A DNA stretch of 64,000 nucleotides, taken from contig NC_022041.1 of NCBI RefSeq assembly GCF_000444995.1, positions 904,001 through 968,000 on the forward strand. The letters are read 5' to 3'. The stretch is from Paracoccus aminophilus JCM 7686. GTDB taxonomy: Bacteria > Pseudomonadota > Alphaproteobacteria > Rhodobacterales > Rhodobacteraceae. The position numbers were made by a program, and so were the translations under genes. The notes beneath the pieces are model-generated. The model had not been told where the DNA came from. It searched no databases and was given only the letters and a program-made list of their open reading frames with translations. Each line of letters begins with the position of its first letter. Position 1 is the stretch's first letter. Of the stretch, positions 44,266 through 64,000 are shown one piece after another.

Positions 44266-44823
44266 TCAGCCAAGGATCTTTGCGACCCAATCGCCATAGG
44301 CCTGCATGATCTTGCTGAGAAAGCCCTGCGTGCCTTCGTTCTTGACCTTGCCCTGATCGTCAAACAGGTCGTTGAAGCCGCCGATATAGGCCTCGGGCTG
44401 CTGCAAGACGGGCATGTTCAGGAAGACCAGAGATTGGCGCAGATGGTGGTTCGCGCCAAAGCCGCCAATGCCACCGCCCGAGCCCGAGACCACCAGCGCG
44501 GGCTTGCCGTCCCAGACGCTTTGGCCATAGGGGCGCGAGCCGACATCCAGCGCGTTCTTGATCGAGGCCGGGACCGAGCGGTTATATTCGGGCGTCACGA
44601 ACATGACCGCCTCCGCGCCTTTGATCTCGCGCCGCAGCCGCGCCCAGGCGGCGGGCACATCGGCTTCGAGATCTTCGTTGTAAAGCGGCAGATCGCCGAT
44701 CTCGACGAAGCTGAAATGCAGGTTTTTGGGGGCGAGTTCGGTCAGGGCATGGGCAAGTTTACGGCTGAACGAGCCTTTGCGCAGACTTCCGACGAGGACG
44801 GCAACTTTGCGTTCGGTGGACAT
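44266..44823 (-). CDS. NADPH-dependent FMN reductase (azoreductase/chromate reductase-like)
   Basis: A 185-aa flavodoxin-fold reductase. It begins VAVLVGSLRKGSFSRKLAHAL (FMN phosphate loop), with IGDLPLYNEDLE, VMFVTPEYNRSVPASIKNALD and PALVVSGSGGGIGGFGA, as in the ArsH/ChrR/YieF group. AGGAG lies 7 nt before the ATG at 44823. The substrate may be quinones, FMN or chromate. Confidence 0.9.
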   Translation of the reverse strand: MSTERKVAVLVGSLRKGSFSRKLAHALTELAPKNLHFSFVEIGDLPLYNEDLEADVPAAWARLRREIKGAEAVMFVTPEYNRSVPASIKNALDVGSRPYGQSVWDGKPALVVSGSGGGIGGFGANHHLRQSLVFLNMPVLQQPEAYIGGFNDLFDDQGKVKNEGTQGFLSKIMQAYGDWVAKILG

Positions 44824-47035: not shown

Positions 47036-47091
47036 CTTTTTCCCTGTCTCTTGTGTGGTTCCCGCAGAGCGCGAAGGGCGCAAGCGAGAAT

Positions 47092-47115
47092 CGCTATGCA
47101 CGATTAAGCATATCG
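47092..47115. promoter_or_regulatory. Mo-box-like inverted repeat upstream of the TonB receptor
   Basis: CGCTATGC (47092-47099) and GCATATCG (47108-47115) are separated by 8 bp (ACGATTAA); the arms match at 7 of 8 positions. The 8-8-8 layout and CG-TAT...ATA-CG ends resemble the ModE operator. It is 57-80 bp upstream of the receptor ATG. The right half with two following bases, AGCATATCGT, recurs upstream of mop. Confidence 0.6.
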
Positions 47116-47213
47116 TGATGTGTCGCAACAGCGACTTTCCGCCGAGGATGGATGAACAGCGTTAAACTCAGCTTGGGATTGCCCGACGCGCCGCAATCGC
47201 GCAAAGAGCGCGC

Positions 47214-47663
47214 ATGGAAAAACACGCTTTGCACATCCGCCCCGCCCATTCCGGCGAAGGCCCGGCGCTGGTTGCGCTTTGGGCGCGCTCGGTCGATGCC
47301 ACCCATGATTTTTTGACCCCCGCCGACCGCGCCGCAATCGGCGCCGAGGTTGCGGCCTTTCTGCCCGAGGCGCCGTTGATCGTCGCGGCGGACGCTTCGG
47401 ATCGCCCGCTTGGCTTCATGCTACTGGACGGCGGTCGGATGGAGGCGCTTTTCCTCGATCCCGATCAGCGCGGTCAGGGCGTCGGCCGGGCTTTGGTCGA
47501 ACATGCGCTCGGCCTGCACCCGCGCCTTGAAACCGAGGTCAATGCCCAGAACCAGCAGGCGCTCGGCTTTTATCTGCATCTCGGCTTTGTCGAGACCGGG
47601 CGCTCGGCGCTGGACGGGCAGGGGCGCGCTTACCCGCTGATCCATCTGCGCCACGACGCCTGA
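47214..47663 (+). CDS. GNAT-family N-acetyltransferase (YjaB-like)
   Basis: A 149-aa acyltransferase. The acetyl-CoA loop is LDPDQRGQGVGRALVEHAL, with the strand MEALFLDPD before it. ETEVNAQNQQALGFYLHLGFVETG is the usual GNAT end and resembles E. coli YjaB. The acceptor is unknown. It is on the plus strand between the receptor and the ABC operon and shares neither promoter, so it may be unrelated to metal uptake. Confidence 0.82.
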   Translation: MEKHALHIRPAHSGEGPALVALWARSVDATHDFLTPADRAAIGAEVAAFLPEAPLIVAADASDRPLGFMLLDGGRMEALFLDPDQRGQGVGRALVEHALGLHPRLETEVNAQNQQALGFYLHLGFVETGRSALDGQGRAYPLIHLRHDA

Positions 47664-47681
47664 AGGCGCGCCGCGCGGGCG

Positions 47682-48446
47682 CTAGTCCGGACGGAAATGC
47701 AGCGCGCCGTCCGACAGCGCCTCGCGCCGGATCCTGGTGCCGTAAAGCGCCGAGAGGTTTTCGGCGGTCATCACCTCATGCGCGGGGCCGCTGGCGACCA
47801 GACCGCTGCGGCCCAGCAAGATCACCCGATCCGCCAGAGCCGCCGCCTGATCCGGGTCATGGGTCGAAAGCACCACGCCCTTGCCGTCGCGGGCGAGATT
47901 GCGGATCAGATCGTCGATGCGCTTGCGGTTGGCAAGATCAAGGCTCGCGGTCGGCTCGTCCATCACCAGCGCCCGCGCGCCTTGCGCCACGGCCCGCGCG
48001 ATCAGCACCATCTGCTGCTGCCCGCCCGACAGCCGCGACATGTCGCGCGGACCAAGATCGCCGATCCCCAGCCGGTCGAGCGCCGCATCGGCCTCGCGCT
48101 CGGCGGCAGGGCCGGGGGTGGCAAAGAGCGGTAAGGTCGCCGCGCGGCCCATCAGGACGATATCGCGGGCGGTGAAGGCAAAGGGCAGGGTCTGGGCCTG
48201 CGGCACATAGGCGATGGCGCGCGCAATCTCGCGCCGGGCCAGCGCGCCAAGCGGGCGGCCTTCGAGGTGAAGCGCCCCGCCGCGCGCGGGCAAAAGCCCC
48301 AGAAGCGTGCGGAAAAGCGTGGTCTTGCCCACGCCATTCGGGCCAAGCAGGCACAAGACCTCGCCCGCGCCCAGCCAGAGATCAAGCCCGGTGAAGAGCG
48401 TCTTGTCACGGTGGCCAATCGCCAGCGCATGGGCTTCGAGCAGCAT
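47682..48446 (-). CDS. FecE/MolC-like ABC transporter ATPase
   Basis: A 254-aa ATPase of a FecBCD-type importer. Walker A is LLGPNGVGKTTLFRTLLGLL, signature RLSGGQQQMVLIARAVAQ, Walker B ALVMDEPTASLD and H-loop VVLSTHDPDQA. The start at 48446 overlaps the permease stop by one base (TGATG); a longer frame to 48563 would lie within the permease. It ends the mop operon. Confidence 0.92.
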   Translation of the reverse strand: MLLEAHALAIGHRDKTLFTGLDLWLGAGEVLCLLGPNGVGKTTLFRTLLGLLPARGGALHLEGRPLGALARREIARAIAYVPQAQTLPFAFTARDIVLMGRAATLPLFATPGPAAEREADAALDRLGIGDLGPRDMSRLSGGQQQMVLIARAVAQGARALVMDEPTASLDLANRKRIDDLIRNLARDGKGVVLSTHDPDQAAALADRVILLGRSGLVASGPAHEVMTAENLSALYGTRIRREALSDGALHFRPD

Positions 48447-49432
48447 CAGGATCTCCAGCCGGTGCCGCTGCGCGCGAGCAGCAGGATGAAAATCGGCGCG
48501 CCGAGAACGGCGGTCAGCAGGCCAAGCGGGATTTCCTGCCGCGCGAGCATCCGCGCACCGCAATCGACCAGCACCATGAAGGCCGCGCCGCCCAGAATGG
48601 TCGCGGGCAAAAGCCGGTCAAAACGCGGCCCGGTCAGCAGACGCAGCATATGCGGCACCATCAGCCCGACCCAGCCGATCACTCCGGCCATCGACACCGC
48701 CGCCGCCGTCATCAGCGTGGCAGAGGCCACGACAATCGCGCGCAGCCGCCCGGCATGAACGCCCAGAGATTTCGCCTCGTCATCGCCAAGCGCCAACAGG
48801 CCGATGCGCCAGCGCAAAAGGATCAGCGGCACCAGTCCCAGCAGGATCGCGGGCGCCGCCGCCAGCACATCGCCGCGCTTGGCCCCGGCAAGGCTACCCA
48901 TCAGCCAGAAGGTTATGGCGGGCAGTTGGTTTTCGGTATCGGCCAGTAGTTTGATCAGCGAGATCCCGGCCCCCGCAAGCGCGCCAAGCGCAATGCCGCA
49001 GAGCACCATAACCAGAACCCCGCCCCCGAGCGCGAGCGAGAGCCCGACCACCAAAAGCACGGTGACCAGCCCGGTGCCAAAGCCCAAAAGCTGGATCATC
49101 AGGACCGGCAGGCCCAGATAGATGCCCAGCACCGCGCCAAAGCCCGCGCCCGCCGAAACGCCAAGAATATCCGGGGAAACCAGCGGGTTGCGGAAGGCGG
49201 TCTGATAGGCTGCCCCGGCTGCGGCCAAGGCCGCCCCGGTCAAGGCGGCGGCCAGCACGCGGGGCAGGCGGATGTTCCAGAAGACCGTGGTTTCGGTCCC
49301 GCCGGTGCCCTGACGGGTGAGCTCGGTCCAGATCTGAGCCGGGCTCAGCGGATAGGGACCAAGCGCGATGCCGAGAAGGAGAACGCCAAGCAGGACCAGC
49401 CCGAGGGGCAGGGTCCAGCTTTTGTCACTCAC
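48446..49432 (-). CDS. FecCD/MolB-like ABC transporter permease
   Basis: A 328-aa permease with about ten hydrophobic helices. FecCD marks are IRLPRVLAAALTGAALAAAGAAYQTAFRNPLVSPDILGVSAGAGFGA, GIALGALAGAGISL, LAGAKRGDVLAAAP and GWVGLMVPHMLRLL. The start is GTG at 49432, inside the end of the binding-protein gene. The same fold serves iron-siderophore, B12 and molybdate (MolB) importers. Confidence 0.93.
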   Translation of the reverse strand: MSDKSWTLPLGLVLLGVLLLGIALGPYPLSPAQIWTELTRQGTGGTETTVFWNIRLPRVLAAALTGAALAAAGAAYQTAFRNPLVSPDILGVSAGAGFGAVLGIYLGLPVLMIQLLGFGTGLVTVLLVVGLSLALGGGVLVMVLCGIALGALAGAGISLIKLLADTENQLPAITFWLMGSLAGAKRGDVLAAAPAILLGLVPLILLRWRIGLLALGDDEAKSLGVHAGRLRAIVVASATLMTAAAVSMAGVIGWVGLMVPHMLRLLTGPRFDRLLPATILGGAAFMVLVDCGARMLARQEIPLGLLTAVLGAPIFILLLARSGTGWRS

Positions 49433-50447
49433 CCAGCAGGTCTTTCAGCTGATCCTCGCTCAGCTCGCTTTGATAGAAGAGCTGATAGAAATCGCGCACA
49501 TCATCCTTGAGCCCGGCCTCGGCCAGCTCGGGATGCAGCTTCGCGGTCAGCCAGCGCAGACCGAGCAGGCGGTTGACCGAGGGCGGCGCGTCGATGAAGC
49601 CGAAGGGCACTTGCGGGGCGAGATAGATCTTGTGGTTCTCGATCGCGGGAATGCCTTTCAGCTCTGGCATCTCGGCGGCTTTCTTGGCGAAATCGGCATC
49701 GACCGTGATGATGACTTCGGGCGCCCATTTCTGCAGCTGCTCGGGTGAGACCGTGATCGGTCCCTTGCTATCGCCTTCGGCGACGTTGATGCCACCCGCG
49801 CGCTCGATGATCTCGGAATGGATCGAGCCCTTGGCCGCGCTTTCCAGCCCCTCGGGGCCACGGGCGAGATAGACTTTCGGGCGCTTGTCTTCCGGGATCC
49901 CGGCCACCAGAGCATCGGTGTCTTTCAGGATCGCCTCGGCCTCGGCGGCCAGCGTCTCGCCACGCTCGGGCACGTCAAGCGCCGCGCCAAGCGTGCGCAA
50001 AGTCTCGGGCGTTTTGGCGAAAGCGCCGTCGAGCAGCAGATAGGGCAGGCCGGTCTGCTCTTCGACCCGTTTCGCAAGGTCGATATAGGTCGCGTTGATA
50101 TTGCCGTAATCGAGCACCATCTGCGCTTTCGCGGCCAGCAGCCCCTCGAGGTTCAGCGTATCGCCCTTGCCGGTCAGACGGCCCAGACCCGGCAGATCGC
50201 GGGTCTCAGCCACAAGATATTGCTTGCCGCTGTCGGGGACCGCACGGACCCAGCCGAGCATCGCCTGCGGCTTCAGCACATAAAGCAGCACATCGGCGGG
50301 CGGGCCTGCGGCATAGATCCGGCTGGCATCGGCGGGCACCGAAATATCTCGACCGGCCGCATCCTTGACGGTTTCGGCAAAGGCCGGGCCAAAGGACAGA
50401 GAGGCCGCGACCAGCGCCGCGGCAGAGAAATCACGAAAGAAGCGCAT
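49425..50447 (-). CDS. Periplasmic substrate-binding protein (FecB/MolA-like)
   Basis: A 340-aa exported protein with an N-terminal signal (FFRDFSAAALVAASLSFGPAFAE). The body has RDISVPADASRIYAAGPPADVLLYVL, VDYGNINATYIDLA-like (seen as VLDYGNINATY), VYLARGPEGLESAAKGSIHSEIIERAGGINVA and ITVSPEQLQKWAPEVIITVD, all class III (COG0614-type). There is no lipoprotein cysteine. Its operon mate Mop suggests molybdate/tungstate; class III proteins mostly carry iron chelates or B12, with MolA as the molybdate precedent. It overlaps the TrmO-like stop by one base. Confidence 0.88.
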   Translation of the reverse strand: MRFFRDFSAAALVAASLSFGPAFAETVKDAAGRDISVPADASRIYAAGPPADVLLYVLKPQAMLGWVRAVPDSGKQYLVAETRDLPGLGRLTGKGDTLNLEGLLAAKAQMVLDYGNINATYIDLAKRVEEQTGLPYLLLDGAFAKTPETLRTLGAALDVPERGETLAAEAEAILKDTDALVAGIPEDKRPKVYLARGPEGLESAAKGSIHSEIIERAGGINVAEGDSKGPITVSPEQLQKWAPEVIITVDADFAKKAAEMPELKGIPAIENHKIYLAPQVPFGFIDAPPSVNRLLGLRWLTAKLHPELAEAGLKDDVRDFYQLFYQSELSEDQLKDLLGE

Positions 50448-50935
50448 CAGGCAGGGTGTCTTTCAGGCTGTTCATCATAGCAGAAAATCGGCTTGATATC
50501 GACGAGCGGGGTGCCGTCGATACAGTCAAGGCCGCGCACGAAAAGGCTGGTGCCCTCGATCCGCTCGAGCGTCACCACGGATGAGGCGATCGGATTGGGG
50601 CGCAGCGGCGAGCGCAGGGCGAATGTGCCGATGCCGCGATCTCCGAAATCGGGATTTTGCTGCACGACATCGCGTCGCGCCTGATGCATCCAGTAAAGGA
50701 TCTGAAGCTGGCTTTTGCCTTCAAGCCCCAGCAGAGCCCCGCGCCACAGAGGATCGAGCCGGATTTCGCAAACCGGCCCGTCCTTGGCGTCGCCCTTCTT
50801 GGGGGAGGTCTTGCGGTCGACCCATGGTGTATGGATCGACCCGATGAACCAGAGATCGGCATCCGAGCGAGGGGGTGCGTTGACCGCGATTTCATGCGGG
50901 CGCAGATCGCCCGGAACCGATTCAGCCATCGACAC
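50447..50935 (-). CDS. TrmO/TsaA-like protein (UPF0066, YaeB fold)
   Basis: A 162-aa protein of the TrmO (YaeB/VirR) family, whose known member methylates t6A37 in tRNA with SAM. Seen: LWFIGSIHTPW (family start), ALLGLEGKSQLQILYWMHQARRDVV, FALRSPLRPNPIASSVVTLERIEG (the RPNPI signature) and LDCIDGTPLVDIKPIF. Start is GTG at 50935, or ATG at 50929. Its place between Mop and a metal-type binding protein is unusual for a tRNA gene; it may act on tRNA, or be recruited to metal-related chemistry. Confidence 0.85.
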   Translation of the reverse strand: MSMAESVPGDLRPHEIAVNAPPRSDADLWFIGSIHTPWVDRKTSPKKGDAKDGPVCEIRLDPLWRGALLGLEGKSQLQILYWMHQARRDVVQQNPDFGDRGIGTFALRSPLRPNPIASSVVTLERIEGTSLFVRGLDCIDGTPLVDIKPIFCYDEQPERHPA

Positions 50936-51131
50936 CGACCATCACGTCAGAGGCCTTGACGATGGCGCTGGCTTTCGCGCCGACTTTCAGCCCGAGATCG
51001 GCAACCGCTTCATTGGTGATGGATGCGGTGACGATCGTGCCGCCGACATCGAGACGGACATGGCTGGTGACAGCCCCCGTGACGATCTCGACCACCGTGC
51101 CCGCAAGCACGTTTCTGGCGCTGATTTTCAT
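50922..51131 (-). CDS. mop: Molybdopterin-binding Mop protein (TOBE/MOP domain)
   Basis: A 69-aa molybdate/tungstate-binding protein, a single MOP domain: MKISARNVLAGTVVEIVTGA, SHVRLDVGGTIVTASITNEAV and LGLKVGAKASAIVKASDVMVGV. Such proteins form hexamers that store oxyanions; in Rhodobacter related Mop domains occur in Mo-responsive regulators. It heads the operon mop-trmO-like-binding protein-permease-ATPase and is preceded by a Mo-box-like repeat 12 bp before its ATG. Confidence 0.93.
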   Translation of the reverse strand: MKISARNVLAGTVVEIVTGAVTSHVRLDVGGTIVTASITNEAVADLGLKVGAKASAIVKASDVMVGVDG

Positions 51132-51142
51132 GACACTCTTCC

Positions 51143-51166
51143 CTTTATGTTGATTCGAGCATATCG
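51143..51166. promoter_or_regulatory. Mo-box-like repeat upstream of mop
   Basis: CTTTATGT (51143-51150), 8-bp spacer TGATTCGA, then GCATATCG (51159-51166). The core TATG-N10-CATA and AGCATATCGT are identical in layout to the site before the TonB receptor; the left arm is weaker. The location right before the mop ATG suits a repressor. Beyond it, 51167-51408 contains no recognisable gene. Confidence 0.55.
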
Positions 51167-51408
51167 TTCTGAGACTGCGCGCGTCAATCGGACAGGATGG
51201 GACGCGCCGGGAGAGTTTGGCACGTCTGAACCGGGGCGCAAGCGATTGTGCCCGGGCGTTGTCTTTTCAAAGAGGAAAGAGCGGATGGGTTGCGTGCCGG
51301 GTCAGATCACCGGCACGGCGGGCGGGCCCGATTGGACTGTATGTCCGATTGGGCGAGGTGCACGACGCGGCGCGCATGCACCGGTCGTTCCCGCTGCGCT
51401 GAGAATGC

Positions 51409-51684
51409 TCAGCGCGAGGCAAGCCGCAGATTGCAGAAACCTGCATGTTGCGCGGCTTTGGAGAAGGCGATCCGGGCCTCTTCGACCGGGATCAGACAGG
51501 CCATGGCGTCTTCGACGGCGCATAGCGCTTTGTCGCGGAGCACACCGGCATCGCGAGGCAAATCGGCCGTCGGCCATTTTTCCTCAAGCCAATATTGCGC
51601 CTGTTCAATCGTAGAGATGGTATAAGAAGTGCCGCTTTGGGCGGTATCGAATGCGAGGGGTTTTCCCCAATTGAGTTCTATCAT
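51409..51684 (-). CDS. DUF982 domain protein
   Basis: A 91-aa protein with the DUF982 pattern: IELNWGKPLAF, TISTIEQAQYWLEEKWP, ALCAVEDAMACLIPVEEARIAFSKAAQHAGF. This family is common in Rhizobiales and Rhodobacterales, often in several copies. Function is unknown. AGGGA precedes the ATG at 51684. It is single, on the opposite strand to the cold-shock gene. Confidence 0.82.
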   Translation of the reverse strand: MIELNWGKPLAFDTAQSGTSYTISTIEQAQYWLEEKWPTADLPRDAGVLRDKALCAVEDAMACLIPVEEARIAFSKAAQHAGFCNLRLASR

Positions 51685-52954: not shown

Positions 52955-55900
52955 TTGACGCAGCAGGCGAGTATGCCGGCCGAGGCACGGGCACGACTGA
53001 AGCAGTTGCTCGACGATCGGAAAGCACGCGGAATCAGCGTGACCCCCACATCCCACGGTCAGGCCGCGCTCTATCACCTCCATCTTCTTGAACCGGATGG
53101 CAGCGCCTATAACACGGCTTTTGCGTTGGAGATCGCGGAAGCAATCGACCTGTCTGCGATGCAGAAAGCGGCGGATAGCTTGCTGGCTCGGCATTCGGCA
53201 TTGCGGGCCGGCTATGCATTGCGCGGCGGCAAGATCGTTCAGGTCATCCGCGACGCGGCGCGCTGTCCGGTCGTCGTCGATCGGCTGGGTCCGATGTCGG
53301 ATGCCGCGCTTTCTCACCGCTTGAGCGCGCTCTTGGCGCAGCCCTTCGAGGTCACGAGAGGCAGTCCCGTCCGTCTGCATCTGATCGAGCTTGAGCCCGA
53401 TCATTGGGTCCTGATGTTTGGCGTTCACCATGTCGCCATTGATGCCCGCTCGCTCATGGTTGCGCTCGACCAATTGCTTCAGGACTATCGCTGGCAGGTG
53501 CGAGGGGGCCCAGAGCCCCGGTTGCCAGCGTCGGATTACGGCGACTATGTCGCTTGGGAGGCCCGGCAGTTGGCAGAGAAGCGCGATCTCTGGGCATCGC
53601 AATGGGCGGGCTCTGCCGAGGTCGCGCTGCCGCCGCCGCAATTCCATGCCGATGAGACCGAGCTCAGCCAGCGGCCCGACCTGACCGGATTGGGTGTCGC
53701 GCAGCATCGGATCGCCGCCGAGGAATGCGCCGAGATAGAGGCGTTTTGTCGTCAGATCAGCATTTCGCCAGCGGCGCTCTTTCTGGGGGCATTCGGCCTT
53801 GTGATCGGTGCCCGCGCCGAGGAGGCCGGGCTCAATGTCGCGGTCTTGACCGACGCGGTCATGGCCGCTGGCGGTGCGCTGCCCCTGCATCTTGTTGGCT
53901 ATGCCGTGAATCCCGTGCTTGTCGCGATAATGCCGAAGGAGATCGGCGCTTCGGCATGGCTTCAGGACGTCCATCTTCGGCTGAACCAATCGCTCACCCG
54001 GCAGGCCTATCCGTTTTCGCTGTTGGTCCAGCAGCTTCCGGCTGGGGCGCGCTCCGCCAGTCTGCCCATTGTCGGTGCCGCCTTCAACTTCCTGCGCGTG
54101 CCGGGCCGCGCCCCGCTGGCCGGTCTGCTCGACGGCTCCGACGAGGGGTGGACCTCGCTTTACGACATGTCGTTGCGGTCGGTTTTCGTGCCTCAGCAGC
54201 AGTCGCAGTTCGAATTCAGCATGGATTGCATCCGGCATTCGGGCGGGCTTGATCTCAGCCTGCGCTGCCCGCCCGAGCGCTATGGTCAGGCGACGATCGA
54301 GGAGGTTCTGGACGGCGTCATCAGCACCGTCCGCCAGCTCCTGGACAGCGCCCAGCCGCTTTTGGCGCTCGATCACCGGGGCCGGACAGAGCGCGGTCCC
54401 ATCGCGGGGCCCGCGCTTGCCGAGACGGCGCTTCTCGCGGTCGGCTCGCCGCAATCGGCCCATCCGCTGAACCTGTTTGATCGGATTGATGCCCATCTGG
54501 CTCATCAATCTCCGACCATCGCGGTGGCGGATGCACAGGGCGAGATGTCGCGCGCAGAACTGCTGGCGCGCAGTCAGGAAATTGCCGCCGAGCTGACCCG
54601 CCGCGGTGTGCAGGGGATCGTGGGGATTCTGGTCCGGCGCTCGCGAATGATCCTTCCCGCCGTGCTTGGGGTTTTGCGCGCGGGTCTGGCCTATGTGCCG
54701 ATCGATCCGGCCTATCCCGAGGACCGGATCCGTTACATGTTGAAGGACAGTCAGGCCAGCGCCATCATCTATGATGAGAGCACGCAAGACCACGCTTTGC
54801 TGAATGATTTTAGCGGGTTGCGCCTGAAGGTCTCGGATCGCTTCGCCCGCGGTGACGTCAAGCTTGCCCGTCCCGCGCCGGACGATCTGGCCTATCTGAT
54901 CTATACTTCGGGCTCGACCGGACGACCGAAGGGCACGATGATTTCTCATGGGGCGGTCAGTGCGTTTCTGTGGTGGTGCATTCAGGAATTTGACGAAAGC
55001 GCTTTCGATACTGCGATCTTTTCGACCTCGCTCTGCTTCGATCTGTCGATCTTTGAAATGTTCTACCCGCTGAGCGTCGGCAAAAGGATCCGGGTCGTCG
55101 AATCTGCGATCGAGCTGCGTGCCATTCTGCGCCATCAAGAGCTGGGCCGGCTTCTGGTCAATACCGTGCCTTCGGTGGTGCGGGAATTGTTGAGCGCCGA
55201 GGTCGATTTCGCGCCGGTTTCGGTCCTGAACATGGCCGGAGAGCCGATCCCGCAATGGGTGGTCGAGGCGCTGGCCCAACAGAGCGCCGACCGGCGCGCG
55301 GCGGGGGCGCAAGAGATCGAGGTGAGAAACCTTTACGGCCCCTCGGAGGACACAACCTATAGCACCTGCATGCGGTTTGGTCCGGGGCTATGGAGCAATC
55401 GGCTCATTGGGCGAGCGATTGCCGGAACCGAGCTTCATCTGCTGGATGCGCAATTGCGGCCGGTCCCGCGCGGGGCCTGTGGCGAGATCTGCCTGACCGG
55501 CCAAGGGCTGGCTCAGGGCTATTGGCAGCGTCCCGACCTGACAGAGGAAAAGTTCGTCCCCTGTCCCTTCCTGCCCGGTCAGCGCATGTATCGTACCGGA
55601 GATATCGGTCGCGCGCGTCTCGACGGGCTGATCGAATTCCACGGACGACGTGACGCTCAGGTCAAGCTGCGCGGCTATCGGATCGAGCTTGGGGAAATCG
55701 AGACCGCGCTGCTCAGGCAGCCCTCGGTGCGCGAAGCGGCCGTCAGCGTCTTCGAATTCGGCGAAACTCAGGTGCTTGCGGCACATGTCGTCGCCGATCC
55801 GTTCGACGAACATGCCCTGCGCGCAGCTCTGGCCGAGCGGCTTCCCCATTTCATGGTGCCCGAGAGGTTCGTGGCGCTCGAGGCCCTGCCGCTGACACCG

Positions 55901-56308
55901 AATGGAAAGATTGATCGCAAAGAGCTGCGCCTGGAGCGGCGGGTCCTTCACGCAGGCACCGAAGATCTGAGCCTGGCCGAGACACGCCTCATGGCGGTTT
56001 GGGCAGGCGTGCTGGGACGCGCGGCCATTGACGTAGAGCAGGGGTTTTTTGAAGCAGGCGGCAATTCCCTTGCCCTGATCTCTCTTCAGGCGGCTTTGGA
56101 AAAAGAGCTCGGCATCACGGTGCAAATCGCCGAACTATATGAAGTGCCGACGATCCGGCATCAGGCGCGAAAGTTCTTCCCGGATCCATCTCCATCACAA
56201 AGCCCGCCGGAACCAGAGGCTTCAGATCCAGAGCCAGCGCTGCCCGATCGGCACCTGCGTCAGGCGCATTTCATGGACCAGAGAAAGAAACGCCAAGCTC
56301 GGCGCTAG
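52955..56308 (+). CDS. Non-ribosomal peptide synthetase, module C-A-T
   Basis: A 1117-aa one-module NRPS. Condensation domain (residues about 20-450) has HHVAIDA (158-164), complete for the second His and Asp but with A in place of the usual final G. Adenylation domain (about 505-990) has A3 YTSGSTGRPKG, A7 YRTGDIGR and A10 NGKIDRKEL. My manual ten-residue specificity reading is D-L-F-T-N-A-L-T-Y-K, close to alanine codes. The carrier domain has GGNSLALIS, Ser1038. There is no epimerase or thioesterase. The start is TTG at 52955 (MTQQASMPAE) because GAGGAGG sits 7 nt before it; ATG 52973 is the alternative. A C domain on the first module suggests acyl or peptidyl input. Confidence 0.92.
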   Translation: MTQQASMPAEARARLKQLLDDRKARGISVTPTSHGQAALYHLHLLEPDGSAYNTAFALEIAEAIDLSAMQKAADSLLARHSALRAGYALRGGKIVQVIRDAARCPVVVDRLGPMSDAALSHRLSALLAQPFEVTRGSPVRLHLIELEPDHWVLMFGVHHVAIDARSLMVALDQLLQDYRWQVRGGPEPRLPASDYGDYVAWEARQLAEKRDLWASQWAGSAEVALPPPQFHADETELSQRPDLTGLGVAQHRIAAEECAEIEAFCRQISISPAALFLGAFGLVIGARAEEAGLNVAVLTDAVMAAGGALPLHLVGYAVNPVLVAIMPKEIGASAWLQDVHLRLNQSLTRQAYPFSLLVQQLPAGARSASLPIVGAAFNFLRVPGRAPLAGLLDGSDEGWTSLYDMSLRSVFVPQQQSQFEFSMDCIRHSGGLDLSLRCPPERYGQATIEEVLDGVISTVRQLLDSAQPLLALDHRGRTERGPIAGPALAETALLAVGSPQSAHPLNLFDRIDAHLAHQSPTIAVADAQGEMSRAELLARSQEIAAELTRRGVQGIVGILVRRSRMILPAVLGVLRAGLAYVPIDPAYPEDRIRYMLKDSQASAIIYDESTQDHALLNDFSGLRLKVSDRFARGDVKLARPAPDDLAYLIYTSGSTGRPKGTMISHGAVSAFLWWCIQEFDESAFDTAIFSTSLCFDLSIFEMFYPLSVGKRIRVVESAIELRAILRHQELGRLLVNTVPSVVRELLSAEVDFAPVSVLNMAGEPIPQWVVEALAQQSADRRAAGAQEIEVRNLYGPSEDTTYSTCMRFGPGLWSNRLIGRAIAGTELHLLDAQLRPVPRGACGEICLTGQGLAQGYWQRPDLTEEKFVPCPFLPGQRMYRTGDIGRARLDGLIEFHGRRDAQVKLRGYRIELGEIETALLRQPSVREAAVSVFEFGETQVLAAHVVADPFDEHALRAALAERLPHFMVPERFVALEALPLTPNGKIDRKELRLERRVLHAGTEDLSLAETRLMAVWAGVLGRAAIDVEQGFFEAGGNSLALISLQAALEKELGITVQIAELYEVPTIRHQARKFFPDPSPSQSPPEPEASDPEPALPDRHLRQAHFMDQRKKRQARR

Positions 56309-56368
56309 GCTCTGTCTCGCGATGAACCGCGCTCGAACGGTCATTGCCGATAGCGAGAAAGTTGAACA

Positions 56369-59300
56369 ATGCTGAATGATAATGTCGCGATTGTGGGCAT
56401 GGGATGCCGGTATCCGGGTGCGCAATCGGTTACGGAATTCTGGGCGCTTCTGCGAGCGGGACGCTGCATGGTCAGCGAGGTGCCCGAGGACAGATGGGAC
56501 AGGTCCGCGATCTTCGACCCCGAGCGGCAGATCCCGAAAAGCGGCGCGTTTCTTGACGATATCAAGCAGTTCGATGGCGGGTTCTTCGGGATGTCGCCAC
56601 GCGAAATTGCCCAGATGGACCCGCAGCAGCGGCTGGCGCTAACGGTGTCCTGGGAGGCGCTCGAGGATGCCGGGTTAAGCCAAACTACGTTGAACGATGC
56701 CCGCGTCGGCGTCTATTTCGGCGTGATCTGGCATGATTACGAACTCGCTCATCGCACGGCCAGTCAGCTCCACACCCCCCATAGCGCCGTCGGTCAATCG
56801 AATGATGTGATCGCGACCCGGATCTCTTATGCCTTCGGGTTTCAGGGGCCGAGCCTGATCGTCAACACCGGCTGTTCCTCATCCCTGGTCGCTTTGCATC
56901 TGGCGCAGCAGGCCCTGCTGGCGGGCGAAATCGACATTGCGGTCGTCGGCGGCGTGAACGCGATGATCGCGCCCGAGGTCATGGTTGCGCTGACCCGGTT
57001 TGGCGGGCTGTCGATGGATGGCACCAGCAAGGCCTTCGCGGCAAGTGCCGATGGTTTCGGGCGCGGCGAGGGCGCGGGGGTGATCGTTCTCGAGCGGCTC
57101 AGCGCCGCCAGGGCTGCCGGTCGTCGTGTCTATACCTTGATCCGGGAAACGGCGGTGAACAATGATGGCGGCGGCAATCAGTTGACCGCACCTTTGCCGC
57201 AGGGCCAGATCAATCTGCTGGCCGAGATCTACGGACGCGGCTCGGTCGCGCCGGGTGAGGTGGATTATGTCGAGGCCCATGGCACCGGCACAGCCGCAGG
57301 CGATCCCGTGGAGGCCGAGGCGCTGGGCGCCATTCTCGGGGCGGGACGGACTGTGCCGCTGCGCATTGGCTCGGTCAAGACGAATATCGGCCATCAAGAG
57401 GGAGGCGCGGGCGTCGCAGGTGTCATCAAGGCGGCGCTTTGCACCTATCACGGGCGTTTCGTGCCCAGCCTGCATTTCACCGATCCCAATCCGAAGATCG
57501 ACTTCGATGGTTGGGCGCTTCAGGTTCAGACAAGCGATGAAAGTTGGACAAAGCCGCGCGCCGCGCGCTTTTGCGGTGTCAGCTCGTTTGGCTGGGGGGG
57601 CACGAATGCCCATGTCGTGCTGCAAGGTGCGCCCGAAGAGATCACGTCGCCGCCTGCCGCAGCGGCGGCCGCAAGCCAGCAGACAATGGCGGGGCCTCCC
57701 CTCTTGTTGGGGCTGTCCGCGCATACTGCCGAGGCTTTGGCTCAGCGGCGGCGTCACGCGGCTGATCTGATCGCGCAATCCGCCGATCCGCGCGATGTCG
57801 CCTTCACCTATACCCAGCGCCGCCAACGCCTGAACCGGCGCTTTTGCGCCATCGGCGCGACGGCCGCAGAGCTGGCGGAGATGTTGCGCAGCGCCGATCT
57901 CGGAGACGAGGCCTCTTCGGAGGCTCTGATCGCTGCGGCCGAGGAGGAGGGCACAGGCGAGCACGGGCCCGGGGCGCGGAGCGCCGGGGACGAGGCCCGT
58001 TCGGTTTGGGTTTTTCCCGGGCATGGGTCGCAATGGCTGAGGATGGGCAAGCCGCTTTATGATCGCGAAGCGGTGTTTCGCGACAGCATCGACGCTTGTG
58101 CTGCGGCTCTGCGAGAATTCGTGGACTGGGACCTGATCGCCTTCCTGACCGAAGAGACCTCTTCTGATTGGCTGGCGCGTGTCGATGTCGTTCAGCCAGC
58201 GCTCTGGGCGATGCAGGTTTCCCTGTCAAAGCTTTGGGAAAGCTACGGCGTGACGCCAGCCGTCGTCGTTGGCCACAGCATGGGCGAGGTTGCCGCGGCA
58301 AGCGTGGCCGGGGCCTTGTCGCTGCGCGACGGCGCGCGAATCATCGCGCTGCGCAGCCTGATCGCGAAGCAGCAAAGCGGGAAGGGCGGCATGCTGGTTG
58401 TCGATCTGTCCTATGAGGATGCGCTTGATTTGATCGAGCCGTATCAGGACCAGATCTCGGTCGGTGTCAGCAGCAGCCCACAATCGACCGTTCTGTCGGG
58501 CGATCTTGAGGCGCTGCGCGAAATCGAGGCGCTGCTGGAGGTCGAAGAGACCTTTTGCAAATGGGTTCGCGTGGATTACGCCTCGCATAGCCCGCAAATG
58601 GACCCGCTGAAAGCCGAGCTGCGCGCGGCTCTGCGCGAGGTCGCGCCGCAGCCCACGCGGTTTGCGATGCTCTCGACCGTGACGCTGGATCAGGTCGCGG
58701 GGCCCGATCTCACCGCCGATTATTGGGTCGACAACCTGCGCGAGCCGGTGCGCTTTGCCCAAGCGATCCGGCAGCTTGTCGAAGCCGGCCATCTGACCTT
58801 CATCGAGATGAGCCCGCATCCGATCCTTCTGCCCGCGCTGGCCCAGAACTTTGCCGCGTTGGACGTGAAGGCTACGGCCATCGAAACGCTGTCGCGTGAT
58901 CAGGGGACGCTCACGCAATTCTGGCGCGCGCTCTGCCGGGCCTATTGCGCCGGGGTGCCGTTTGACGATGGCGCGGTCCTGTTCGCGGGGGCGCGCCAGA
59001 TCGAGGTCACGCGATACCCTTGGCAATTTGAGGACCATTGGTTCCCGACCAAAGGCGGGGCGGCGAATATCCCGGCCTTGGGCAGGCATCCGGTCATCGG
59101 CGTGCCGGTTGAGGCAGGGCGTGCTGGTCTGTCCCGCCTGATTTGGGAAAGCACTTTGGGCCTGTCGCGGTTTCCGTTCCTTGCCGATCACCGCGTGGCA
59201 GGCGCGATAGTCTGTCCCGGTGCCTTCTATATTGAAGCTCTGCGCGCGGCGGTCGAGCAACTCGGCGGTGAAGCGGTCATCGCGCTTGAGACGATCCAAT

Positions 59301-62300
59301 TCGCACAGCTTTTGGTTCTTGATGAGGATCAGGACTATACGGTCCAGGTCACCTTTACCGGAACCGCAGCGGAGGGCGGGTTGCTCGAATTCCGCTCGCG
59401 CCCGGTCGAGGCCGAGCCGACGGCGGACTGGACCGTGCATTGTCGCGCGCATTTTGTGCCCGGTCAGGCGCCAGTTGCAGAGCATCGGGCCGCAGCGCAT
59501 CGGACCGCGGCGGTTTTGCCGGAAAACCCCGAGGCGGCCGCGCGTTTTTATGCCGATGTCGCGGCCACAGGGCTGGATTATGGCGAGGCCTTCAGGGCGA
59601 TCACCGCGATCGAGCCCGTCCATGGAGGGGTTGCGGCGCGGGTGGAGGCCGGCGCGGCGCTTGGTGCCGGGCTGGGCCTTTACGGTGCCCATCCGGTCCT
59701 GCTCGATGGTGTCCTTCAAACCTGCCTCGCCCATCCCGCGCTGCTTGCGCTCGGGCTACGGCAACCCGTGCCGATTGCCATTGAACGCTGCCGTCTGGCC
59801 GGGGATTGGGCTGGCACCCTTAGCATCGAGGTAGAGGGGGTGACCCCTTTGTCATCGCAGGGCTGCCGGATCGATGCGGTCCGCGTCTTCGGGCCGGACG
59901 GCAGCCCGATCGGAGAGATATCCGGTCTCGAGCTGAAAGAGGCCTTTCTTTCCCAAGACACAGGCGGCAGTGGGCTGATCGACGCCGAATGGGGTCGGGA
60001 ATGGACCGAGCTGGTCCCTGCGACCGGACCAATGGCACCCACCCCGAAGTCAGGCCGCTGGTTGGTGCTCGCGCAAGACGCCGACCTGCTTGAGCGGATC
60101 AAGGCGGCCGCCCCCGAGGGGGTCGCGCTTCACCTCGTGACGCTGCCCGAGACCGCCGAACTCGCCGAGCTGCTGCGGCGCGAGGACTGGGCGCAGGTCA
60201 TTTTTTGCCCGGATGCCTCGGATGATCGGGCCGATCATGCGCAGGGGGTGAGCTGGCAAGCGATCACCGTGATGCGGGCCGCGCTTGCCGCGCCCTCTGA
60301 GCCGCGGCTTTGGTTTCTGACCTCGCGCAGCCTGACCGCGCCGGATTATGCCTGCGCAAACCCTTGGCTGGCGGGGTTGCGCGGATTGACGCGGACCGCT
60401 GCTTATGAAGCGCCCGGGCTGCGGGTGAGCTTGCTCGATCTCGCCGGCCTCGACCCTGCCGCTCTTCGCAGGGGGATGGCGTTGATCCAGGCGGACCAGC
60501 CGGGCGAGGAATTCGCCATCGGGCCCGAAAAGGATTGGGTGAATGCGCTCGCGCCCGAAAGCCTCGCCGAGATCGACGCTCCGGCAAGCTATCTCGGCTT
60601 GCAAAACGGCGGCCCTTATCGGCTGAGCCTTGCGCAGCCGGGATCGACAAGCGGGCTGCATCTGAGCGCCGCGCATGAGCGTCCGCTCGCTGAGGACAAG
60701 ATCCGCGTTCGGGTGAGCCATGCCGCGCTGAACTTCATCGATCTGATGAAGGTCATGGGGATCTATCCCGGACTTGAACCCGGTGCGCTGGCGCTTGGGG
60801 GTGAATGTGCTGGTGAGGTCGTGGCGGTTGGCGGGGCGCTGACGCAGACGGGAAACACAGCCGGGGGAAACACAGCCGGGGGGATCGCGGTCGGGGGGAT
60901 CGCGGTCGGGCAGCCGGTGATGGTTGCGACCTCGGGGGCGTTCTCTCGCGAGGTCGATGCCAGCGCCTTCGAGCTTGTGGCGCTGCCCAAAGACCTGTCG
61001 CTTGAAGCCGCATCGGCCCAACCTCTGGTCTATATGACTGCCTGGTATGGGTTGCACCATCTGGCACGGCTGCGCCCGGGCGAGCGTGTGCTGATCCATT
61101 CGGGCACCGGCGGGCTGGGTCTCGCGGCGATCGCGGTCGCGCGGTCGCTCGGGGCAGAGGTGCTGGCGACGGCGGGCAGCGAGGCCCGGCGCCAGCATCT
61201 GCGCGAGATGGGCATCAGCTGCGTGGCCGATTCCCGCAGCCTCGACTTCGTCGCGGCGGTCCGGGCACATACCAAAGGCGAAGGCGTGGATGTGGTGCTC
61301 AATTCGCTGACCGGACAAGCCCTTTCCGCCGGTATGGAGCTTCTGCGCTTTGGGGGACGGTTCGTCGAGGTTGGGAAAAAGGACATCTATCGCGACGCGC
61401 CGCTCAATCTCGGCGCGTTCCGGAAAAGCCTCTCGTTCTTTGCGGTCGATCTCGCCTCGTTGCAAAAAGAGCAGCCAGCGCTTTTCTTGTCGCTGCTGCG
61501 CGAGGTCGCTGCGCTGCTCCAAGACGGTCAGGTCCCCGCTTTGCCGGTCACCACCTTTCCGGTCGATCGCGCCGCGGAGGCCTTCGATTATCTGTCGAAG
61601 TCGCAGCATATCGGCAAAGTCGTTCTCGAGATGACCGGTGCGACAGGTCTGAGAACTCAGGCGCTGGACGGCGGTCAATTGCGTCGGAATGGGATCTATC
61701 TGATTACCGGCGGGCTCGGAGCTTTGGGCCTTGCGACCGCCCGGCTTTTTGCCGAACGCGGCGCGGGACATCTCATCTTGTGCGGTCGCTCGGCACCCGG
61801 TCCGGCAGCGCGTGACGAGATTGCGGCACTTGAAGACATGGGGTGCACCGTCTCGATCCTGCCGGTCGATGTCGCACAGAGCGCGCAGTTGCGCGCCGCC
61901 CTGCTTGCGCTTGGCGAGCGCGTGAACGAATCCGAGATCCTTGGCAAGATCAATGGCGTTGTCCATGCGGCGGGGGTTTTGGACGATGCCACGCTCGAAC
62001 AGGTGAGCGAGGCCCAGCTCGCCCGGGTCTTCCGGCCGAAGGTCATGGGGGCTTGGGCGCTCGACAGCGTTCTGGCGGATGCGCCGCTCGATTTCTTCCT
62101 GTTCTACTCCTCGGCCGCCGCGCTGTTCGGCTCTCCCGGTCAAAGCGCCTATGCCGCGGCGAATGCGGTTCTGGATGCTTTGGCCGAGTGCCGCCGCGCG
62201 CAGGGCAAACCCGCGACCTCGATCAATTGGGGGCCTTTCGCCGATATCGGTCTGGCGGCGCAGGATGCGCGGCGCGGCAAGCGACTGGATGCGCAAGGCA

Positions 62301-62845
62301 TGCGCGAGCTCAGCGTGACGCAGGGCATGGATGCCCTGATCGACATTTTGCACGCGCAGCCAGTCACCATCGGCATCGTCCCCTTCGAGCCGGGGCGGTG
62401 GTGCGAGGCCCATCCTTCGGTCGCGGGGCTCCAAAGCTTCGCCGCACTTTTGCGCAGCGAAACCGGCGGCACGGCACGGCGCCAGGAGCTGCTGCGGCAG
62501 GTCGTCGACGCGCCTGTCGAGGACAGGGCGCGGCTCTTGGCGGACGGCCTTCGCAGCTTGCTGGCCCGCGTGCTCGGGCAAGGCGAGGACCGTATTTCGG
62601 ATGAGACGCCTTTCCGCGCGCTCGGATTGGATTCCCTGATGAGCCTCGAATTGCGCAATCGCCTGGAAAAAAGCCTCGGGCTGAAGCTCGCGCCGACCCT
62701 GCTCTTTCGCCATTCGACCGTCGCGGCACTCAGCGACTTCCTCCTTGGCAGCCTCGCCACCGCCGGAGCCTGGCACGAGGCCGGGACGGCAGGCGAGCCG
62801 CCGCTTTCCCCCGTGAGATCAGAGAGACGCGGAGACGCCCAATGA
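56369..62845 (+). CDS. Type I polyketide synthase, fully reducing module KS-AT-DH-ER-KR-ACP
   Basis: A 2158-aa PKS. KS residues about 5-425: C169 in NTGCSSSL (usual TAC changed to TGC), H304 in EAHGTGT, H342 in KTNIGH. AT about 545-850: GHSMGE (S637), RVDVVQPALW and YASH (737-740), motifs linked with methylmalonyl-CoA. DH: HRVAGAIVCP (H941) and D1113 in LLDGVLQ. A structural KR half follows, then ER with GTGGLGLAAIAVAR (about 1579-1592), KR with TGGLGALG, LDD (1871-1873, B-type) and Y1928, and ACP Ser2089. All reductive domains look intact. An in-frame 20-residue repeat lies in the ER. Follows the NRPS by 60 bp. Confidence 0.95.
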   Translation: MLNDNVAIVGMGCRYPGAQSVTEFWALLRAGRCMVSEVPEDRWDRSAIFDPERQIPKSGAFLDDIKQFDGGFFGMSPREIAQMDPQQRLALTVSWEALEDAGLSQTTLNDARVGVYFGVIWHDYELAHRTASQLHTPHSAVGQSNDVIATRISYAFGFQGPSLIVNTGCSSSLVALHLAQQALLAGEIDIAVVGGVNAMIAPEVMVALTRFGGLSMDGTSKAFAASADGFGRGEGAGVIVLERLSAARAAGRRVYTLIRETAVNNDGGGNQLTAPLPQGQINLLAEIYGRGSVAPGEVDYVEAHGTGTAAGDPVEAEALGAILGAGRTVPLRIGSVKTNIGHQEGGAGVAGVIKAALCTYHGRFVPSLHFTDPNPKIDFDGWALQVQTSDESWTKPRAARFCGVSSFGWGGTNAHVVLQGAPEEITSPPAAAAAASQQTMAGPPLLLGLSAHTAEALAQRRRHAADLIAQSADPRDVAFTYTQRRQRLNRRFCAIGATAAELAEMLRSADLGDEASSEALIAAAEEEGTGEHGPGARSAGDEARSVWVFPGHGSQWLRMGKPLYDREAVFRDSIDACAAALREFVDWDLIAFLTEETSSDWLARVDVVQPALWAMQVSLSKLWESYGVTPAVVVGHSMGEVAAASVAGALSLRDGARIIALRSLIAKQQSGKGGMLVVDLSYEDALDLIEPYQDQISVGVSSSPQSTVLSGDLEALREIEALLEVEETFCKWVRVDYASHSPQMDPLKAELRAALREVAPQPTRFAMLSTVTLDQVAGPDLTADYWVDNLREPVRFAQAIRQLVEAGHLTFIEMSPHPILLPALAQNFAALDVKATAIETLSRDQGTLTQFWRALCRAYCAGVPFDDGAVLFAGARQIEVTRYPWQFEDHWFPTKGGAANIPALGRHPVIGVPVEAGRAGLSRLIWESTLGLSRFPFLADHRVAGAIVCPGAFYIEALRAAVEQLGGEAVIALETIQFAQLLVLDEDQDYTVQVTFTGTAAEGGLLEFRSRPVEAEPTADWTVHCRAHFVPGQAPVAEHRAAAHRTAAVLPENPEAAARFYADVAATGLDYGEAFRAITAIEPVHGGVAARVEAGAALGAGLGLYGAHPVLLDGVLQTCLAHPALLALGLRQPVPIAIERCRLAGDWAGTLSIEVEGVTPLSSQGCRIDAVRVFGPDGSPIGEISGLELKEAFLSQDTGGSGLIDAEWGREWTELVPATGPMAPTPKSGRWLVLAQDADLLERIKAAAPEGVALHLVTLPETAELAELLRREDWAQVIFCPDASDDRADHAQGVSWQAITVMRAALAAPSEPRLWFLTSRSLTAPDYACANPWLAGLRGLTRTAAYEAPGLRVSLLDLAGLDPAALRRGMALIQADQPGEEFAIGPEKDWVNALAPESLAEIDAPASYLGLQNGGPYRLSLAQPGSTSGLHLSAAHERPLAEDKIRVRVSHAALNFIDLMKVMGIYPGLEPGALALGGECAGEVVAVGGALTQTGNTAGGNTAGGIAVGGIAVGQPVMVATSGAFSREVDASAFELVALPKDLSLEAASAQPLVYMTAWYGLHHLARLRPGERVLIHSGTGGLGLAAIAVARSLGAEVLATAGSEARRQHLREMGISCVADSRSLDFVAAVRAHTKGEGVDVVLNSLTGQALSAGMELLRFGGRFVEVGKKDIYRDAPLNLGAFRKSLSFFAVDLASLQKEQPALFLSLLREVAALLQDGQVPALPVTTFPVDRAAEAFDYLSKSQHIGKVVLEMTGATGLRTQALDGGQLRRNGIYLITGGLGALGLATARLFAERGAGHLILCGRSAPGPAARDEIAALEDMGCTVSILPVDVAQSAQLRAALLALGERVNESEILGKINGVVHAAGVLDDATLEQVSEAQLARVFRPKVMGAWALDSVLADAPLDFFLFYSSAAALFGSPGQSAYAAANAVLDALAECRRAQGKPATSINWGPFADIGLAAQDARRGKRLDAQGMRELSVTQGMDALIDILHAQPVTIGIVPFEPGRWCEAHPSVAGLQSFAALLRSETGGTARRQELLRQVVDAPVEDRARLLADGLRSLLARVLGQGEDRISDETPFRALGLDSLMSLELRNRLEKSLGLKLAPTLLFRHSTVAALSDFLLGSLATAGAWHEAGTAGEPPLSPVRSERRGDAQ
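60851..60910 (+). repeat. In-frame 15-bp tandem repeats inside the PKS enoylreductase
   Basis: Two exact copies of GGAAACACAGCCGGG (60851-60865, 60866-60880) are followed by two exact copies of GGGATCGCGGTCGGG (60881-60895, 60896-60910). They encode GNTAG twice and GIAVG twice, residues 1495-1514. The length keeps frame. The exact copies look recent. Confidence 0.93.
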
Positions 62846-64000
62846 GTTTATCCGATGACACCGCCGCGCCTGCTGCACCGGCCGAAGAACGTGGAGCCGC
62901 ACAGCTTCGCCGCGCGATGGGGGCGCTGCGCAAGTTGCAGACCGAGCTTAGCCAGTTGAAGCAAGCCCAGAACGAACCGATTGCCATCGTCGGATTTGCC
63001 GCGCGCATGCCCCAGGTCGGCGCCAGTACCGACGCGTTCTGGGAGCAATTGCTCGCCGGTGCCGATCTGACCGCGCCGCCATCGGCACGCCGCAAGGCGC
63101 CCTGTGCGACGGGCTTGCCGCAGAAGGCCGGCTTTCTGCCCGAGATCGATTGCTTCGATGCCTCGCGGTTTGAAATATCGCCCAAAGAAGCGGGCCGGCT
63201 TGATCCCCAGCACCGGATCTTGCTGGAACTGGCGGACGCGGCTTTGGACGCTGCCGGGCTTGGGTCTCGCGCGGGGCACGCCGCTGGCCCGCGCAAGATC
63301 GGCGTCTATGTCGGCATGTCCTCGGGCGATTATCGCGAGCTGCTCGACCCGCAATCCGCCCAGCTCGACGCTTTTTGTGCGACTGGAACGACGCCCTGCT
63401 TCTCCGCAGGCCGGATTTCCTATGCCTTGAACCTGACCGGCCCGGCCATGGTGGTCGATACCGCCTGTTCCTCGGCGCTGGTCGCGCTCCATCTGGCTTG
63501 TGCGGCGCTGCGGCGTGGCGAATGCGACGCCGCACTTGGCGGCGGGGTCAATATCATCACCTCGGCCTTCGCGCAGGCGCTGCTGGAAGAAACCCGCTCG
63601 CTGTCGCCCAGTGGCATCTGCCGCCCCTTTGACGCGCGCGCGGATGGTTTCGTCCGCGGCGAGGGCGGGGCGCTTTTCGTGCTCAAACGCCTGTCCGATG
63701 CGCTCGCTTCCGGCGACGAGATCCGCGCCGTGATCCGGGGCAGTGCGATCAATCAGGATGGGAAATCCAATGGCTTGACCGCGCCAAACCCCGAGGCTCA
63801 AACCGCCGTCATCCGCGAGGCCCTACGCAATGCCGATCTTTCCGCCGAGGCGATTTCCTATGTCGAGGCGCATGGCACCGGCACCGCTTTGGGGGATCCG
63901 ATCGAGATGGAGGCCTTGACCGAGGTCTTCGCGCGTGCGGGTGAACCCTGCCGCGTCAGCTCGGTGAAAAGCAACATCGGTCATCTGGAAGCCGCCGCTG
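62842..64000 (+). CDS. Second type I polyketide synthase, 3' end outside window
   Basis: 386 residues are visible. Residues about 17-42 (RRAMGALRKLQTELSQLKQA) form an N-terminal coiled coil, probably a docking helix receiving the upstream ACP. The KS follows: IAIVGFAARMP, C209 in DTACSSAL, H344 in EAHGTGT and H381 in KSNIGH, a full catalytic triad. The start overlaps the stop of the first PKS by 4 nt (ATGA), behind GGAG. The sequence stops in the KS, so module composition and product release cannot be read here. Confidence 0.93.
   Translation, partial: MSLSDDTAAPAAPAEERGAAQLRRAMGALRKLQTELSQLKQAQNEPIAIVGFAARMPQVGASTDAFWEQLLAGADLTAPPSARRKAPCATGLPQKAGFLPEIDCFDASRFEISPKEAGRLDPQHRILLELADAALDAAGLGSRAGHAAGPRKIGVYVGMSSGDYRELLDPQSAQLDAFCATGTTPCFSAGRISYALNLTGPAMVVDTACSSALVALHLACAALRRGECDAALGGGVNIITSAFAQALLEETRSLSPSGICRPFDARADGFVRGEGGALFVLKRLSDALASGDEIRAVIRGSAINQDGKSNGLTAPNPEAQTAVIREALRNADLSAEAISYVEAHGTGTALGDPIEMEALTEVFARAGEPCRVSSVKSNIGHLEAAA

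Follow-up and report, generated by a model that had tools for sequence, protein, structure and literature searches.

The window analysed here (64,000 nucleotides, C1:904001–968000, of a 4.87-Mb genome in six contigs) contains, at positions 52955–64000, the first third of a set of ORFs which spans approximately 31 kb (52955–83973 in window numbering) and is located entirely on the plus strand. The first two members were recognized as ORFs and by Pfam: G1 (52955–56308, 1117 aa), an NRPS module C-A-T with the start codon TTG and GGAGG upstream, and G2 (56369–62845, 2158 aa), a PKS module KS-AT-DH-ER-KR-ACP. G3 (62842–72327, 3161 aa), of which the first 386 of 3161 codons lie within the window, has the bimodular architecture KS-AT-KR-ACP-KS-(AT deleted)-DH-KR-ACP. 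It is followed by G4 (72331–76017, 1228 aa; KS-OMT-ACP), a DUF2071 ORF (76051–76446, 131 aa), G6 (76725–82859, probable start 76806, 2017 aa; KS-AT-KR-DH-ACP-TE), and the alpha/beta hydrolase G7 (82900–83973). For G3, G4 and G6, the same architecture is obtained from Pfam and from cluster-built HMMs, with the TE of G6 seen by Pfam alone. The KR-before-DH order of G6 was considered as a novelty and rejected, since the same order is displayed by P0019, P0024, P0107 and P0119.

The open frames of 1118 (G1), 2158 (G2) and 3161 (G3) codons, together with the domain matches, indicate that G1 to G3 are not chance ORFs. The first five ORFs are spaced by 60, −4, 3 and 33 nt, the overlap of G2 and G3 being ATGA. 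The DUF2071 frame continues beyond a single in-frame stop (76444–76446) to 76809, where its end overlaps the probable start of G6, again via ATGA. These short gaps and ATGA overlaps argue for one operon, and we consider it fairly probable that 52955–83973 represents a complete seven-ORF NRPS-PKS operon which produces one small molecule by the steps proposed below.

An earlier note on this DNA had described three co-directional genes, separated by a 60-bp gap and then a 4-nt overlap, with C-A-T and KS-AT-DH-ER-KR-ACP architectures, as a hybrid NRPS-PKS cluster of a Rhodobacterales-like genome. The genome is indeed one of Rhodobacterales and most likely belongs to Paracoccus, since a plasmid replication region shows 81–84% identity to plasmids of this genus. 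The gene positions (52955–56308, 56369–62845, and 62842 onwards) and Pfam bear out this layout, and the classification as a modular hybrid is supported by a co-directional set of genes which combines a C-A-T module with PKS modules of type I (KS, ACP). The third gene had rightly been described as cut by the window: upon extension past 64000, G3 ends at 72327 and four further ORFs follow up to 83973, so that the 11 kb originally assigned to the cluster fall short of its actual size. The AT-less modules, the enol-ether-type OMT and the terminal TE module were beyond the reach of that note.

Genomic surroundings and distribution

The upstream genes had been regarded as ordinary core genes, which is incorrect. 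They comprise an uptake block with a TonB receptor and ABC, FecCD and binding-protein genes (44945–50447, minus strand) outside the operon, a GNAT gene (47214–47663, plus strand), and TrmO. Of 61 genus genomes, only 12, including its own, match the FecCD gene at E ≤ 1e-60, and the iron-uptake block to the left of the operon is accessory in the genus. For a 299-aa ORF at 50715–51614, Pfam returned no family, and only partial matches were obtained in congeners, several of them containing stops.

On the other side, starting 171 bp past the operon, an element of approximately 15.3 kb (84145–99457) is enclosed by 15-bp direct repeats. The repeat at 84145, TGGCGGAGAGGGTGG, copies the 3′ end of a tRNA-Ser(CGA) gene (99443–99532), and the element carries a tyrosine integrase (84304–85596), a Toprim/DUF7146 gene and a DUF3987 gene. 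It is an integrative element in tRNA-Ser. ARAGORN additionally reports a tRNA-SeC within the element (94564–94654, minus strand), opposite a 1010-aa ORF, which is possibly false.

Direct att repeats around the PKS operon were not found, as the exact pair (84145, 99443) flanks the neighbouring element only. The sole further match to the 15-bp sequence at ≤2 mismatches is located at 44435, just before the TonB receptor block, and may be either a former att site or a chance match. The GC content of the operon amounts to approximately 63–68% per 2 kb (54001 to 84000), with a window mean of 64.8%. We therefore rejected the idea that the PKS operon itself is an island, given that the repeat marks the neighbouring element and the GC content is not distinctive. 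The right flank of the tRNA-Ser gene is conserved in four relatives (L049–L052). To its left, no predicted gene of one relative recurs in another or in the extended sequence at 1e-15, which indicates a variable site; at 1e-10, among the listed genes outside the operon, only weak ABC-ATPase matches (31–33%) appear, in L050.

No orthologue of the cluster was found in the genome and protein sets searched, each protein search having scored the 8000 candidates with most words in common. Some match to G1 exists in 58 of 61 genomes (its own, 36 congeners, and 24 others from the class), as NRPS domains would lead one to expect; among the matches listed, long ones outside its own genome are about 29–34% identical and shorter ones up to 50%. 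The best 120 of 4314 protein database matches to G1 include two stand-alone C-A-T proteins of 1108 aa (37–38% identity over 96%), one of them named as Myxococcus. G2 is matched at E ≤ 1e-120 in 27 of 124 other genus genomes with 33–40% identity over roughly the first 870–1120 residues, and a full-length match to G2 occurs in none of the 124. The hypothesis of core genes is rejected by this distribution of G1 and G2 in genus and class, in line with the earlier expectation that the cluster is not core in the order.

The OMT of G4 has a match at E ≤ 1e-20 in four of 384 other genomes of the class. In the protein database, G4 residues 455–1215 retrieve seven non-self proteins (best 34% over 53%), and the best-scoring non-self match to G6 residues 880–1660 has 39% identity over 26%, with others at about 30% over 70–79%. 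Two relatives at 30% were returned by a species-genome scan with G4 patterns, in which own-genome or very near records may be left out. The earlier statement that the cluster is not a recognized one holds: a close full-length match was sought in the protein and genome sets and none was found, and the literature searched on methoxyacrylate PKSs, Paracoccus clusters and AT-less lines, which leaves most subscription journals uncovered, contains no description of it. What does seem to be widespread in the genus, in contrast to this cluster, is an NRPS of about 1550 aa in the neighbourhood of a PKS of about 2100 aa (L062, C1:3236001–3256000; for example also in G032:C12, G023:C1 and G004:C56).

AT-less modules and a related cluster in the same genome

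An AT is present in three of the five PKS modules (G2, G3 module 1, G6) and absent from G3 module 2 and G4, so the pattern differs from cis-AT lines with an AT in every elongating module. Alignment of the stretches following the KS in G3 module 2 and G4 displays the loss of the GHSxG core and of the YASH/HAFH motif, with the flanking linkers remaining; the AT has been lost from both modules by deletion. Of the eight AT-family matches in the genome, seven belong to megasynthases; the eighth, a 320-aa frame at C1:1292340, approximately 304 kb from the cluster, is taken as a candidate FabD on account of its size. As this frame is the only AT of the genome outside megasynthases, the cluster and its vicinity lack the separate AT gene of trans-AT lines, and a dedicated trans-AT gene was rejected.

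A related cluster is located 1.2 Mb away (C1:2169271–2186849, minus strand) and comprises B2a (KS-AT-DH-ER-KR-ACP), B2b (KS-(no AT)-KR-ACP-KS-AT-DH-KR-ACP) and B2c (KS-(no AT)-ACP). The order of modules is the same as in the studied cluster, but the AT of the bimodular protein is missing from module 1 instead of module 2, and B2c is devoid of an OMT. In a tree of 167 KSs, built without labelled references, the pairs G2/B2a (0.999), G3 module 1/B2b module 1 (0.993) and G4/B2c (0.971) are recovered, and the KS of G3 module 2 joins the pair G4/B2c (0.973); that of B2b module 2 groups with P0079 (0.952), not with G3 module 2. For KS, AT, KR and DH, G2 and B2a are each other's best match within the set compared, as are G3 module 2 and B2b module 2 for DH (41%), and G2 shows 44% identity to its counterpart over almost the entire length. 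Pairing is less neat for the bimodule ATs and KRs, and P0079, a metagenome protein of 3009 aa with the same bimodule architecture as G3, a second AT-less module and 50–52% identical KSs, lies at least as close to the bimodule KSs as the two clusters do to each other. The two lines are thus related, with the AT absent from different modules, but modules may have been shuffled.

How the AT-less modules receive malonate may be explained in two ways. Firstly, G3 module 2 and G4 could have their ACPs charged in trans by the housekeeping FabD, the AT pattern of the related clusters being accidental; we hold the chances of this to be slightly short of even. The FabD size of the sole AT outside megasynthases fits this mechanism, and a precedent is provided by barnesin A, for which FabD is reportedly indicated as trans-AT for an AT-less NRPS-PKS, with omission of the native FabD in E. 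coli cutting production only slightly (PMC13096860). However, one AT is retained per bimodular protein in this cluster, in the related cluster and in four database bimodules, and there would be no need for this if FabD acted freely.

Secondly, within one protein, the malonyl-AT of one module could also charge the ACP of the other, AT-less module, and it might serve the ACP of G4 as well. Retention of the AT in module 1 of G3 and in module 2 of B2b, although the lines are related, is consistent with such sharing. The same holds for 126 database proteins sampled by similarity to G4 or G6, and thus not at random, of which 30 contain two complete modules: both ATs are intact in 25 of these, only the first is present in three, the second is truncated in one, and none is present in one, so that four of the 30 combine one intact with one missing or truncated AT. 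On the other hand, sharing within one protein cannot explain G4 and B2c, since neither protein carries any AT, and the bimodule AT and KR domains do not pair like the KSs, as would be the case after shuffling of modules. We therefore regard it as a tentative and rather doubtful idea that both related lines run on shared ATs, with one malonyl-AT per bimodule charging both ACPs and perhaps the next AT-less protein. If AT sharing were true, it would be intermediate between cis-AT and trans-AT logic, and AT loss would be tolerated in either module as long as one copy remains. Two related clusters which have lost ATs from different modules provide a natural comparison for PKS engineering, where it is asked whether a single AT can supply both of two modules and by what route cis-AT ancestors give rise to AT-less modules.

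The O-methyltransferase of G4

The OMT of G4 matches 28 solved sequences at E ≤ 0.01, the best of which are the O-methyltransferases StiE (1.4e-43) and StiD (1.6e-43) of the stigmatellin PKS, aligned over about 280 residues; the PKS methyltransferase 6hp1 also matches (6.2e-36). StiE, StiD and 6hp1 all have Glu at the diagnostic column, the catalytic Glu of StiE and StiD, and G4 has Gln there (residue 919). StiE and StiD are reported to methylate beta-hydroxyls, and this Glu is replaced by Gln in LynB2, BarF, JamN, MtaF and CtaF, whose substrate is, or is postulated to be, 3-oxoacyl-ACP (PMC10127204). Neither Pfam nor the HMMs built from the cluster detected a KR in G4. With both Gln at residue 919 and a module devoid of KR, as in enol-ether OMTs of the LynB2/MtaF type, enol methylation is the best reading of the G4 sequence. 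An action on a beta-hydroxyl or on carbon instead of the enol appears improbable: the closest solved relatives do methylate beta-hydroxyls, but Gln replaces Glu in a module without KR, and a target on carbon is further disfavoured by StiE and StiD being the best of the 28 solved matches, among which no PKS C-methyltransferase was noted by name.

The diagnostic residue was compared in nine database proteins, of which P0049 gave no alignment, and in eight loci, two of which (L030 and L068) look like one and the same 6222-base contig. Glu is present in seven of the eight aligned database proteins (Ala in P0011) and in seven of the eight loci. The sole other Gln homologue found is L029 of Pyxidicoccus fallax, followed by a gene C-A-luciferase-type monooxygenase-T-TE, which we take to be the architecture of MtaG. 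P0008 has no KR match, yet keeps Glu, so residue and KR are not always coupled. In each of two 1.5-Mb single-contig genomes of the class, small for such a gene (L065, G426:C1; L066, G336:C1), a protein of about 1250 aa carries an OMT of the same family, with Glu at the diagnostic site.

MtaG is the terminal protein C-A-monooxygenase-T-TE. No such terminal NRPS is present in the operon, which ends with KS-AT-KR-DH-ACP-TE and a hydrolase, and thus differs from the myxothiazol/melithiazol type. MtaF and CtaF (myxothiazol, cystothiazole), described as KS-AT-MT-ACP (PMC10127204), resemble G4, as do LynB2, BarF and JamN, by a Gln-type OMT in a module without KR; in contrast, G4 has no AT and is followed by a further elongating module and a TE. 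StiE and StiD share the domain family of the G4 OMT and differ by Glu and by their action on beta-hydroxyls. In the barnesin A synthase (BrnE/BrnF), an NRPS likewise delivers to a PKS module which has a TE but no AT; however, this synthase displays a single PKS module and no mix of AT-bearing and AT-less ones (PMC13096860). The working principle of the cluster studied here is known; the mix of AT-bearing and AT-less modules with a Gln-type OMT in a Paracoccus-like genome is a new variation.

Methoxyacrylate members of the methyl-enol-ether polyketides are respiratory-chain inhibitors. The examples of such polyketides named in PMC10127204 come from cyanobacteria and myxobacteria; if the reading of G4 is true, an alphaproteobacterial source would be added to them.

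Proposed product and the possibility of decay

The A-domain pocket of G1, aligned to LgrA, reads DLFNNALTY(K), presumably an alanine code; the string DLFNNALTY was not found in the literature searched. The AT of G2 carries RVDVVQ, GHSMGE and YASH, of which RVDVVQ and YASH are taken to indicate methylmalonyl, and the ATs of G3 module 1 and G6 carry GHSIGE or GHSIGQ plus HAFH, which we assume to be of malonyl type. The first steps predicted earlier, an amino acid followed by a saturated methyl-branched unit, agree with this reading of the G2 motifs.

Based on these data, we hypothesize that the C domain of G1 acylates an amino acid, probably alanine, activated by the A domain, and that G2 adds methylmalonate with full reduction. 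G3 module 1 would add malonate and leave a hydroxyl, and G3 module 2 would add malonate and form a double bond. G4 would add a further malonate and O-methylate the enol of the beta-ketothioester, and G6 would add the last one with another double bond before the TE releases the chain. Malonate for the AT-less G3 module 2 and G4 would be supplied in trans by a FabD-like protein or a neighbouring AT. The product is probably an amino-acid-primed, methoxy-decorated polyene, with the expected core 12-(acylamino)-9-hydroxy-5-methoxy-10-methyl-trideca-2,4,6-trienoic acid or a lactone thereof (calculated formula of the free-amine core C15H25NO4).

The in-frame stop in the DUF2071 frame means that part of the operon may be decaying, and, together with the two AT deletions, would fit a cluster which has lost its function and makes no product; we consider this quite unlikely, as each of the five megasynthase genes has an open frame (3.4 to 9.5 kb), the KS, ACP, KR and DH motifs are conserved, and AT-less modules are found in database proteins too. 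For the active operon, the PPTase would be encoded elsewhere in the genome, where three 4′-PP-transferase matches were found; one of them, of Sfp type, adjoins the related cluster, next to which an FAD monooxygenase-like gene is located as well.
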